Below, piece by piece: positions 2,840 to 4,847 of a stretch of 5,417 nt of DNA. The position numbers and the translations under genes were made by a program. Each line of letters starts with the position of its first letter. Within the stretch, counting starts at the first letter, position 1. Under the pieces are notes generated by a model, which saw nothing but the letters and a program-made list of their open reading frames with translations, did not search any database and had not been told where the DNA came from. Source of the DNA: an uncultured bacterium (GTDB taxonomy: Bacteria; Patescibacteriota; Gracilibacteria; Absconditabacterales; Absconditicoccaceae); the NCBI GenBank assembly GCA_903943625.1, contig CAJAPL010000144.1, forward strand, positions 1 through 5,417, given 5' to 3'.

Positions 2840-2878
2840 AGATTGAGTCTTCGGAAACGGAGATTTTTTCTTTAATCT
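2840..2878 (+). terminator. Rho-independent terminator after the sigma-4/HARE gene
   Basis: A 7-bp stem GTCTTCG (2847-2853) and CGGAGAT (2858-2864), including two G-U pairs, closes a stable GAAA tetraloop (2854-2857). It runs straight into six T residues (2864-2869). An outer pairing of AGATT (2840-2844) with AATCT (2874-2878) could extend or replace the hairpin. It starts 21 bases after the TAA at 2817 and separates this gene from the tRNA region. A further T-run follows at 2884-2890. Confidence 0.75.
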
Positions 2879-2894
2879 AATAGTTTTTTTAAAC

Positions 2895-2922
2895 TTGATA
2901 ATAATTAGCTAATTTTTAATAT
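2895..2922 (+). promoter_or_regulatory. Probable promoter for the tRNA-Leu transcript
   Basis: TTGATA (2895-2900) and TAATAT (2917-2922) are spaced by 16 bases. Transcription would start near 2929-2932, at the first base of the tRNA-like half-copy and about 80 bases before the mature tRNA. The spacer contains the perfect 12-bp palindrome AATTAGCTAATT (2903-2914), which could be an operator or a coincidence of AT-rich DNA. The position between a terminator and a tRNA supports the call, but the elements are not exact matches to consensus. Confidence 0.4.
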
Positions 2923-2931
2923 AAACCAAAA

Positions 2932-2981
2932 GCTCAGGTGATGGAACTGGTATATTTATCCCGCAAGGCGGGGCATGTACG
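2932..2981 (+). pseudogene. Degenerate copy of the tRNA-Leu 5' half
   Basis: Bases 2932-2954 are identical over 23 bases to the start of the tRNA-Leu gene at 3012-3034, covering the 5' acceptor strand GCTCAGG, the D-arm and GGTATA. The copy is then interrupted by 19 bases containing the hairpin CCCGC-AAG-GCGGG, and resumes with CATGTACG (2974-2981), matching 3035-3042. It diverges inside the anticodon stem. There is no anticodon loop of the right kind, no T-arm and no 3' acceptor strand, so it cannot be a tRNA by itself. It is either a broken duplicate or a tRNA-like leader of the transcript. Confidence 0.75.
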
Positions 2982-3004
2982 TCGGCTGAAAGCCGAGAGA
3001 TAAA
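2955..3004 (+). other. Compact two-hairpin structured element between the tRNA-Leu copies
   Basis: Two strong GC-rich hairpins stand out in AT-rich surroundings: CCCGC-AAG-GCGGG (2960-2972, 5 bp, 3-base loop) and TCGGCT-GAA-AGCCGA (2982-2996, 6 bp, 3-base loop). An outer stem TTTATC (2955-2960) with GATAAA (2999-3004) can close both into a three-way junction; its C2960 is shared with hairpin 1. The composition and tight loops resemble short palindromic (REP-like) insertions, or a structured RNA leader. No coding potential is seen. The function is unknown. Confidence 0.6.
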
Positions 3005-3011
3005 ATTAAGC

Positions 3012-3093
3012 GCTCAGGTGATGGAACTGGTATACATGTACGATTGAGGTTCGTATGCCGTAAGGCTTGTGGGTTCGAGTCCCATCCTGAGCA
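3012..3093 (+). tRNA. tRNA-Leu (anticodon GAG)
   Basis: A complete class II tRNA of 82 bases. The acceptor stem GCTCAGG (3012-3018) pairs perfectly with CCTGAGC (3086-3092), and the discriminator is A3093, as expected for leucine. The D-arm is ATG/CAT with GG in the loop. The anticodon stem TACGA (3039-3043) and TCGTA (3051-3055) encloses the loop TTGAGGT, with anticodon GAG at 3046-3048, reading CUC and CUU. A long variable arm contains GCC-GTAA-GGC (3057-3066). The T-arm is GTGGG-TTCGAGT-CCCAT (3069-3085). The CCA end is not encoded and must be added after transcription. A partial copy of its 5' half lies 80 bases upstream, probably on the same transcript. Confidence 0.95.
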
Positions 3094-3141
3094 AATTCTA
3101 AATCATAAATTTCACATTTATCATTTAAAATAGTACAAACT

Positions 3142-3591
3142 ATGTCATTATTAGAACAGATTATGTCTGATTACAAACAAGCAATGATTGCCAAAGAAGA
3201 GCCCAAAAAAACAGTTCTCAATATGATTATTGCAAGAGCAAAAAATAAGAAAATTGAACTTCAAAAAGACTTGGAAGATTCAGAAATAATCCAATTAATC
3301 AAAAAGGAAATCAAAGAAATTGCCGAATCGATGTGATTTCTTGAAAAAGCAAATAGAGTAGAGGATCTAGAAGTAGAGAAACAGAAAAAACTTTTGCTAG
3401 AATTTTATCTGCCTTCTACTATGTCTCCAGAACAGACAAAAGAGCTTATAACCTCGCTAATCACGGAGTTGAATATAACAGACCTTGCTAAAGAAAGGTG
3501 AATCCTTATGAAAGAATTAATGGCAAAATACAAATGACAAATAGATTGATCTTTGGTAAATGAAATTATAAATAGTATGCTGACTGCATAA
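3142..3591 (+). CDS. yqeY: GatB/YqeY domain-containing protein
   Basis: The product is 149 residues, the usual length for free-standing YqeY proteins. The family shares its fold with the tRNA-binding tail of GatB, the amidotransferase subunit that makes Gln-tRNA or Asn-tRNA; the role of stand-alone YqeY is not settled. The N-terminus MSLLEQIMSDYKQAMIAKEE matches the family start. EIKEIAESMGFLEKANRVED (residues 56-75) corresponds to the conserved segment before the Asp-Leu motif, EFYLPSTMSPEQ (88-99) to the YLP motif, and KYKGQIDGSLVNEIINSML (129-147) to the C-terminal helix motif. All four glycines are TGA, at the expected family positions, so standard-code annotation would cut the protein at 64 residues. 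The start has no Shine-Dalgarno sequence. The gene begins 48 bases after tRNA-Leu and ends 20 bases before the next gene, with no terminator on either side, so the three may be co-transcribed. Confidence 0.93.
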
Positions 3592-3611: not shown

Positions 3612-4847
3612 ATGTTCAATCATCAGACCATATTCAGATTTTTTTCTCTGGTATTTATTGCTTGAATATTTTTTGGATTAAGTAATGTATTGTGACAATG
3701 TACAACAGGGACTAATTGATGATATAATTGATGAAGTATGCCGTCCCCCAATACCTGCTTGTCAGTCCAAACGAACCAAAGTAGTCTAGATCGATATAAT
3801 AATGACCAAGAACTATTAGACGGAGCAAAAAGATTTATAGTCGCATACGATCTATTAGCCTCGTTCGATTTATCTTGCGAAGCAAACAATGTCCGTGCTA
3901 TACAAAATCAAATGCAAATAGTTTGATGAGCTTGTACAACGTGTTTAGATTGAAGATTTTGAAAAGATACAAAACTCAAATTAGAAAATAGTTGTTCTCC
4001 TGTATGTAATGGTACCAACAAGCCCGTAAATATAAACTTTCAAACTCCATGTGATAGTTGATACACGCTTGATAGTTATATTTGATGCTGTATTCCCACA
4101 CCCCCTCCATGATGAAACAATAATACCTGATGAAATAATACCTGATGAAACAACACCTGATGAAACAACACCTGATGAAACAATCCATGACCAGGACTAC
4201 CTTCAAATATCACGTGAGTGGAATCTCAGTGTGGATTGCCCGCTTGAACATTAAATCCTACTACTGTGACCTGTGTGAAGAATCAATGAGGTGGTTGTTG
4301 TGTAGATAGCGGTATTCGAGCTTCAATATCACAATGACAGACCAAACCAAATTTAAGTTTTTGTCCAAATGCAAATACTCCACAAAATAATTGTACCAAA
4401 ACATGAGAAGTCGGTACTTTATCTTGAGGTACTACACGATCTTGCAAACAGTGCTGATCTTGAAAAATGGCAAACATCGATCATACAAAATGTATTTGTG
4501 ACCCATGACAATGATGTTGTGGAATCCAGCTAAATACCGTTGTTCCATTCATATGAGATTGTATAGAGATGAGCAATGAAGAATCAGCTGGTAATACAAC
4601 CAGAGTTAATCCTCTCAATGCATTCCCTAGGCTCATGTGATGACTTAGTAAGATTATTGTTACTGCTATACTTATATTCTCATTTGTTATGGTTGTAGTA
4701 GCATGAGTACTTATTACTTCTTGAGGAATCCAGCAAGAAAACTACAAAAAATGACTAGAGATAATCAAAAAAGTTATTATGGCTTTGGCTCTATTATGAG
4801 CATCATGAATTATATTGCGTCTTATCAATCCAAACTTCTTTGGTTAA
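3612..4847 (+). CDS. Secreted Cys-rich protein with C-terminal T4SS-pilin-like two-helix module
   Basis: The product is 411 residues with about 41 TGA glycines. Residues 1-29 look like a signal sequence: hydrophobic FRFFSLVFIAGIFFGLSNVL, with cleavage near residue 29. An exported domain with about 23 cysteines follows, including CTTC (108-111) and CSPVC (128-132). Three Cys-Cys pairs, at 159-160, 229-230 and 302-303, each sit near the end of a Cys-rich stretch, suggesting disulfide-bonded modules. A Gly/Asn linker of five GGNN units (167-192) separates the first module from the rest. The C-terminus has two membrane helices: about 346-370, ending in ITSGG, then the charged loop QQENYKKGLEIIKK, then 388-404, ending ILRLINPNFFG. 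This helix-SGG-charged loop-helix pattern matches the VirB2/TrbC-like pilins common in Patescibacteria. A membrane-anchored or assembled surface protein is inferred. ATG 3612 gives the signal peptide; no Shine-Dalgarno sequence is present. Confidence 0.88.
4110..4187 (+). repeat. 15-bp tandem repeat encoding the GGNNT linker
   Basis: Five in-frame units, based on TGATGAAACAACACC, encode GGNNNT, GGNNT, GGNNT, GGNNT and GGNNP. The first unit is 18 bases because of an extra Asn codon; the others are 15. Units differ at a few third positions, and units 3 and 4 are identical. Every unit carries two adjacent TGA glycine codons. Because the unit is a multiple of three, gain or loss of copies would change linker length without breaking the frame. 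Confidence 0.92.

Follow-up and report, generated by a model that had tools for sequence, protein, structure and literature searches.

A broken copy of tRNA-Leu(GAG) in an Absconditicoccaceae genome as the probable relic of a small GIY-YIG nuclease element

Why should an intact tRNA gene be preceded by a broken, hairpin-bearing copy of its own 5' half? This question is raised by a 5,417-nt stretch of DNA (hereafter the window) from an uncultured member of the Absconditicoccaceae. Read with TGA as glycine (translation table 25), the window carries genes for a YchF GTPase, a sigma-70-region-4 protein, tRNA-Leu(GAG) and YqeY, together with ORFs lacking a Pfam match, one of them a predicted ORF of 411 aa (3612-4847, table 25) that is cysteine-rich with glycine/asparagine repeats. 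The tRNA-Leu(GAG) gene at 3012-3093 is the sole tRNA called by ARAGORN and Rfam (49.3 bits), and yqeY (3142-3591, Pfam PF09424) served as a marker for identifying the same locus in relatives. Both genes, the parts of the broken copy and the sites upstream of it lie on the plus strand.

The broken copy begins with 23 nt (2932-2954) that are identical to nt 1-23 of tRNA-Leu(GAG), comprising the acceptor 5' strand and the D arm to the D loop, and its start lies 80 nt before that of the tRNA; an exact repeat of this length inside 350 bp is, by simple arithmetic, far above chance expectation. A 19-nt D-loop insert follows at 2955-2973, made of TTTA and a hairpin (core CCCGC AAG GCGGG), which corresponds to a recurrent 'hairpin-TAAA' unit in reverse orientation and has a near-identical counterpart in the sister species G001. 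The half-copy then continues with CATGTACG (2974-2981), equal to tRNA nt 24-31 and present as the same word in the intact tRNA at 3035-3042. The exact copy and its spacing, the hairpin insertion and the renewed match had all been described in the initial annotation, and all are borne out here. Its statement that the sequence then diverges proved too simple: the anticodon arm of the copy holds, at 2982-3004, a second hairpin (TCGGCTGAAAGCCGA) and then GAGATAAA, the hairpin itself spanning 2982-2996 with GAGATAAAATTAAG after it, and the G001 copy, which has hairpin-TAAAATTGAGG at the equivalent place, runs on in tRNA-like form. Finally, comparison by eye with L031 points to a last tRNA-like remnant, ATTAAGC (3005-3011; anticodon-loop ATTGAGG in G001), which directly abuts the intact tRNA.

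Upstream of the broken copy, a promoter-like site (TTGATA-16-TAATAT, 2895-2922) is recognized by consensus match only (9/12), in a stretch where the same kind of scan finds 5 such sites vs 1.6 in shuffles, and both of its hexamers are conserved in G001. A terminator-like hairpin with a T run, likewise a consensus match only, ends the upstream gene at 2845-2866, and a very similar stretch exists in G001. Since these promoter-like and terminator-like sites both precede the broken copy and are both kept in G001, this copy apparently stands where the gene originally began and, with the promoter-like site ahead of it, is probably transcribed as a leader. An Rfam scan of the window (E <= 1) returned the tRNA only, with no group I or group II intron, T-box or other leader RNA. 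An intron of group I or group II in the tRNA gene was rejected for want of an Rfam match, the downstream tRNA moreover needing no splicing to be complete. Tandem tRNA genes were rejected as well, a single tRNA being found by ARAGORN and Rfam; the initial annotation had likewise taken the locus for neither a normal tandem tRNA nor a known intron pattern.

A comparison with related genomes, which had been suggested as a check, recovers the same copy, longer and tRNA-like, at the same place before tRNA-Leu(GAG) and yqeY in G001, a species of the same genus assembled in 8 contigs (98% identity over positions 8-57 of the query 2925-3100). In that species the copy is laid out as a D-loop hairpin, a hairpin-TAAA unit in the anticodon loop, the anticodon loop ATTGAGG, a variable arm and a T-loop hairpin, and it reaches the T arm but has no acceptor 3' strand. 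Judged from this alignment, the copy in the window is a G001-type copy cut short in the anticodon loop. When 28 tRNA-Leu(GAG) loci, not all beside yqeY, were compared, a piece of this tRNA scoring 26 bits or more lay within 450 bp in 10; the other 18 had none, two of them having one flank shorter than 65 nt and a third, L034, bearing a very worn remnant by eye.

The most complete arrangement occurs at the tRNA-Leu(GAG)-yqeY locus of Candidatus Gracilibacteria bacterium S5_H10 (L036, JAEHHG010000011.1), where a complete sandwich is found: a 5' half-copy from 2773 (nt 1-28, hairpin TCCGCCTAGGCGGA, nt 44-61), a GIY-YIG ORF at 2869-3111 (PF01541, 62.9 bits), the intact tRNA-Leu(GAG) at 3115-3197, a 3' half-copy from 3222 whose hairpin is identical to that of the 5' half-copy, and yqeY at 3319. 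Similarly, at the Leu(GAG) locus L040 a GIY-YIG ORF (4430-4669) lies between the 5' copy and the intact tRNA, together with tRNA remnants, and that of G015 bears a truncated GIY-YIG ORF with tRNA remnants. The alleles of this locus thus comprise the full sandwich of L036, broken copies without GIY-YIG in the window's own genome (G000), G001 and G002, and the complete genome RAAC1_SR1_1, in which no copy was detected. In the window, no GIY-YIG ORF adjoining tRNA-Leu(GAG) was found, and the whole of its genome has one GIY-YIG match, on a different contig. The earlier suggestion of a scar of insertion or partial duplication is thereby supported and made more specific, a relative having a GIY-YIG gene between the broken and intact copies of the same tRNA.

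The association of such genes with tRNAs goes beyond this locus. Six relatives together hold 31 GIY-YIG matches, of which 21 loci were viewed directly, and at least 14 of the 31 lie within 150 bp of a tRNA (binomial P ~2e-16 against an assumed 1.9%), the other 17 not being found within that distance of the tRNAs listed. Thirteen of these 14 are on the strand of the tRNA and one, beside tRNA-His, is on the opposite strand. All 13 same-strand ORFs have an intact tRNA on one side and a broken copy of it on the other, the copy at L100 being weak by score. The order is broken copy, GIY-YIG, intact tRNA for Val, Leu(UAG), Lys(UUU), Lys(CUU) and Leu(UAA), and the reverse for Tyr, Cys, Ile2/Met and Leu(GAG). 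The ORFs measure 73-85 codons, and at a Leu(UAG) locus with GIY-YIG in genus g4 (L203) the D-loop insert has the same TTTA-hairpin design as in the window. In relatives, the whole element brings together a GIY-YIG ORF, an intact tRNA and a half-copy, 5' or 3', of that tRNA's isotype.

In a tree of 46 GIY-YIG proteins, three of whose rows are short fragments, 10 of the 14 tRNA-linked proteins fall in two supported clades (99/98 and 99/97) without unlinked members; the remaining four form a Lys/Cys grade, beside which falls the unlinked L112, a long branch encoded 337 bp from tRNA-Trp. One Tyr and one Val version are sisters, as if moved between isotypes. Considering only the best GIY-YIG match per genome in 30 genomes, a tRNA lies within ~150 bp at no more than 5 loci, one being the tRNA-His case, which speaks against a general link; most of these best-match genes are other GIY-YIG types. 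Genomes with the arm-swap pattern described below carry modestly more GIY-YIG genes, on average 4.6 vs 2.6 in those without (P = 0.0096, with relatedness not corrected). Genes of the S23/IVP four-helix type (PF05635) were also considered as a general tRNA partner and discarded, at least one of 41 matches in six genomes being beside a listed tRNA; they were seen near tRNAs at G001:C2:71350 and, by eye, at L033 4540-4900.

Broken copies themselves were surveyed in the tRNA-bearing stretches of the window's own genome and six relatives, amounting to 147 distinct tRNAs. A same-strand fragment of the tRNA itself (at least 30 bits, within 450 bp) accompanies 29 of them and an antisense one none (0/147); when fragments of a tRNA were instead sought beside other isotypes in its genome, 108 of 3840 pairs had one. 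The survey rules out a curiosity unique to one genome. Leaving aside loci selected for GIY-YIG or Leu(GAG) (L052, L053, L093-L112 and the window) gives 16/122, and the strictest subset, from which L059, L122 and L132 are also removed as they hold GIY-YIG or Leu(GAG) sites, gives 9/101. In G016, none of 24 tRNAs has a copy, and its one GIY-YIG gene has no listed tRNA near.

The copies follow a recognizable scheme. Most upstream copies retain the start of the tRNA, beginning at or near nt 1 and matching up to nt 24-29, and most downstream copies retain its end. In many upstream copies, a G+C palindrome of 16-19 nt, sometimes imperfect, replaces the anticodon arm before the tRNA resumes at nt 41-46, and this swap is met in Val, Pro, Leu, Lys, Gly, Tyr, Met/Ile2 and Ala isotypes. 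Upstream copies end at nt 48-64 in 19 of 25 cases and at nt 28-41 or 72 in the rest, a scatter too wide for a single clean cut site in the T loop, which was dismissed on that ground. Exceptions to the scheme are an upstream tRNA-Cys copy with both ends in G001, a middle piece of tRNA-Thr, and a 5' piece of tRNA-Glu located downstream in G015. In addition, half-copies form tandem arrays of two to five units in G001 (Ile2/Met), G032 (Ala), G024 (Gly, and before tRNA-Ala) and G030; that of G001 at L067:5238-5830 has three hairpin-bearing units of 83 bp before tRNA-Met/Ile2(CAU), and the one near tRNA-Ala in G024 (L166, contig C12) has five of ~104 bp.

When the pattern of a D-arm end followed by the arm-swap hairpin was searched more widely, it gave 21 matches, spread over 10 of the family's 49 genomes, and its backwards control gave none; at 19 of 20 such loci examined, several of them belonging to one array, an intact tRNA lies no more than 450 bp away. 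Among the other genomes of the phylum, the pattern occurs in 12 of 378 vs 15 matches of the backwards control, so that by count a spread outside the family is background; L160 alone among the 12 loci concerned has an intact tRNA that near. By eye, the matches at L153, L159 and L160, from other families of the phylum, resemble tRNA relics, and the half-copy phenomenon may extend past this family. Viral contigs contain at least 120 arm-swap stretches, and 2 of 80 such loci examined have a tRNA within 450 bp.

As regards the hairpins, a G+C-rich one is present in the adjoining 45 nt of 29 of 45 fragments vs 24 of 626 controls drawn from those flanks, and perfect stems of 5 bp or longer occur in 33 of 45 vs 216 of 626. 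They come in two forms, the anticodon-arm swap and a loop insert of ~19 nt that joins a hairpin to TAAA or, reversed, TTTA to a hairpin; the 19-nt insert of the window is of this second form, reversed. TAAA adjoins the hairpin at 12 of 176 ends vs 2.2 expected from its frequency, and is found at 7 of 198 hairpin ends in bulk G001 DNA. Given that similar palindromes occur between genes elsewhere in G001, the hairpins are probably a dispersed palindrome family of their own; the 16-mer at L062:6795, for instance, is identical to the hairpin in the tRNA-Met copies of L067. In the same species, 41 intergenic non-terminator hairpins were noted in ~45 kb outside ORFs of at least 80 codons (L057-L072). 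A derivation of the hairpins from mutated anticodon arms was unconvincing, the longest shared word being 3.8 with the own arm vs 3.4 with other arms in 14 pairs. One guess would be that the palindromes, whether in place of the anticodon arm or within the D, anticodon and T loops, prevent cutting, processing or tRNA-like folding of the half-copies.

Replacement of a tRNA gene is suggested by another locus of the window's own genome, L157 (G000:C97, ~1490-1860). A hairpin-bearing 3' remnant there matches the tRNA-Gln(CUG) of the sister G002 at 29 of 30 positions, while the adjacent intact tRNA-Gln(CUG) is 69.9% identical to that of G002 and 80.8% identical to the genome's own tRNA-Gln(UUG). Since the remnant agrees with the sister gene and the adjacent intact gene diverges from it, the native tRNA-Gln(CUG) seems, from these identities, to have given way to another gene, with its 3' part surviving as a relic. 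A 3' remnant of tRNA-Leu(UAG) lies further along the same locus. The Gln(CUG) pair thus looks like the foreign functional part and displaced native part expected of a mobile ORF of the fungal type discussed below; for Leu(GAG) in the window, the two parts are identical over 23 nt. In G051, from another family, a tRNA-Leu(CAA) appears by eye to be split in the D arm by an inverted-repeat insert that carries a second, complete and different tRNA-Leu(CAA) (L026).

Taken together, these data make it probable, at roughly two chances in three, that the segment in the window is a decayed remnant of a small element, carrying a GIY-YIG nuclease, that had invaded tRNA-Leu(GAG). On this view, positions 2932-3011 would hold the displaced 5' part of a tRNA gene, with its predicted promoter still attached, and the cell would live on the intact tRNA downstream. 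By analogy with the phage endonuclease SegB, the nuclease would cut tRNA genes, probably in conserved arms, and repair from an element-bearing copy would place the ORF and an intact tRNA next to a half-copy; in time, the ORF would be lost and the half-copies sometimes amplified in tandem. Cleavage and homing by the tRNA-linked GIY-YIG proteins are likewise inferred. In the relatives, whose elements have the PF01541 domain, an endonuclease ORF separates the functional copy of a gene from its displaced copy; the window has no such ORF and is accordingly filed as a relic, not a member, of the free-standing GIY-YIG homing endonuclease elements. Nevertheless, many half-copies have no adjoining nuclease gene, the scattered break points and the copies that depart from the two-sided scheme also speak against the model, and it gives no reason why the intact tRNA escapes cutting or why the anticodon arm is exchanged. 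A bolder version is tentative and rather doubtful at present: the element might be a natural cleave-and-rescue system, in which a minimal GIY-YIG nuclease destroys essential tRNA genes and carries an intact replacement tRNA, the conquered genes being bracketed by anticodon-less, hairpin-swapped halves, and the window representing the end state after loss of the nuclease.

Several known systems resemble this arrangement in part. Integrative elements with tRNA attachment sites restore a working tRNA, a displaced fragment of which marks their far end; unlike them, the sandwiches examined hold a GIY-YIG ORF of ~0.25 kb with no room for an integrase, and 5' parts are duplicated here besides 3' parts. 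Double-hairpin elements and small inverted repeats of fungal mitochondrial DNA are short mobile G+C palindromes, and the hairpins found here are likewise short G+C palindromes but lie in bacterial tRNA half-copies.

SegB of phages T4 and T6 is a free-standing GIY-YIG homing endonuclease of tRNA clusters (PMC13096335, PMC2988022). It cleaves within tRNA genes, its activity is required for the tandem amplification of a tRNA-Tyr segment, and its gene is found close to tRNAs in phages (PMC13096335). The likeness consists in a small GIY-YIG gene beside tRNA genes. The SegB motif, RAWTSGAAC, is the reverse complement of GTTCSAWTY, read here as T-loop sequence, and thus of the arm in which several 5' half-copies end. 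Unlike SegB, the present genes lie on bacterial chromosomes, are ORFs of 73-85 codons and are accompanied by half-copies with swapped anticodon arms. A tblastn search with one tRNA-linked GIY-YIG protein against 50,697 phage records gave three weak matches, all in unannotated records, and among four proteins compared with NCBIfam one had a sub-cutoff match to a group I intron endonuclease and three had none.

A second parallel comes from fungal mitochondria, where mobile ORFs replace the end of a host gene (atp6, atp9, cox2 and nad3 in Glomus, atp6 in Allomyces), with a GIY-YIG nuclease in Glomus atp9 and LAGLIDADG ones in the other three Glomus genes (PMC3630166). The likeness is that an endonuclease ORF separates the functional gene, restored, from the native piece that it displaced (PMC3630166), and the difference is that those are mitochondrial protein genes, whereas tRNA genes, a whole replacement copy, and left- and right-hand forms are involved here. 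Homing nuclease elements and displaced host-gene ends are already known; literature searches, judged by titles and abstract openings, gave no recognizable account of a bacterial tRNA-bracketing form with hairpin-bearing half-copies.

The alternative that survives best, although rather improbable, is a plain tandem duplication of tRNA-Leu(GAG) followed by decay, in which dispersed G+C palindromes would land in the dead copy and the nucleases would be passengers in tolerant spots. It agrees with the fact that copies adjoin their own tRNA and often share local sequence with it, with the palindromes of the same kind elsewhere between G001 genes, including the 16-mer shared with the tRNA-Met copies, and with the existence of tandem arrays without nuclease and of a few middle or odd fragments. 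Against it, all 13 same-strand tRNA-linked GIY-YIG genes sit between intact and broken copies and belong to largely separate clades, and random decay does not readily yield the retention of starts in most upstream and of ends in most downstream copies, or the arm swaps at much the same place in many isotypes.

Far less probable is a functional tRNA-like leader RNA, in which the half-copy would compete for the 3' end of the intact tRNA and so regulate tRNA-Leu maturation. The promoter-like site ahead of the half-copy is in its favor, as is the predicted equilibrium fold of 2930-3100, where the first GCTCAGG pairs with the tRNA 3' end (p ~0.99 for most pairs) and the tRNA's own 5' strand does so with p ~0.01; the same calculation in G001, however, favors the intact stem (p ~0.70). 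The covariance search and folding that had been proposed for this region give a single tRNA at 3012-3093 and suggest that the half-copy could capture its 3' end in the window but less so in G001, a calculation on which the main conclusion does not rely. Moreover, copies occur downstream as well as upstream of tRNAs, some in tandem arrays and in many isotypes; 18 of the 28 Leu(GAG) loci had no detected copy, and no Rfam leader or T-box was matched (E <= 1). The deliberate tRNA-like leader offered as an option by the initial annotation is consequently not favored. Lastly, an assembly artefact or collapsed repeat, conceivable for a genome in 216 contigs, is very improbable, since the 8-contig sister G001 carries the same copy with its 98% identical stretch and analogous structures occur in many other genomes.

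If the reading as a nuclease-element relic is true, tiny selfish nuclease elements that supply a replacement tRNA of their own would be overwriting essential tRNA genes in a reduced bacterial lineage. This would account for the tRNA half-copies, the replacement of tRNA genes and the GIY-YIG genes between tRNAs in genomes of the SR1/Absconditabacteria type, and would provide a bacterial counterpart to SegB and to the fungal mobile ORFs. The exchange of anticodon arms for G+C palindromes is a separate puzzle, now testable, and there would be many natural test cases for the attack and rescue of an essential gene by an element.
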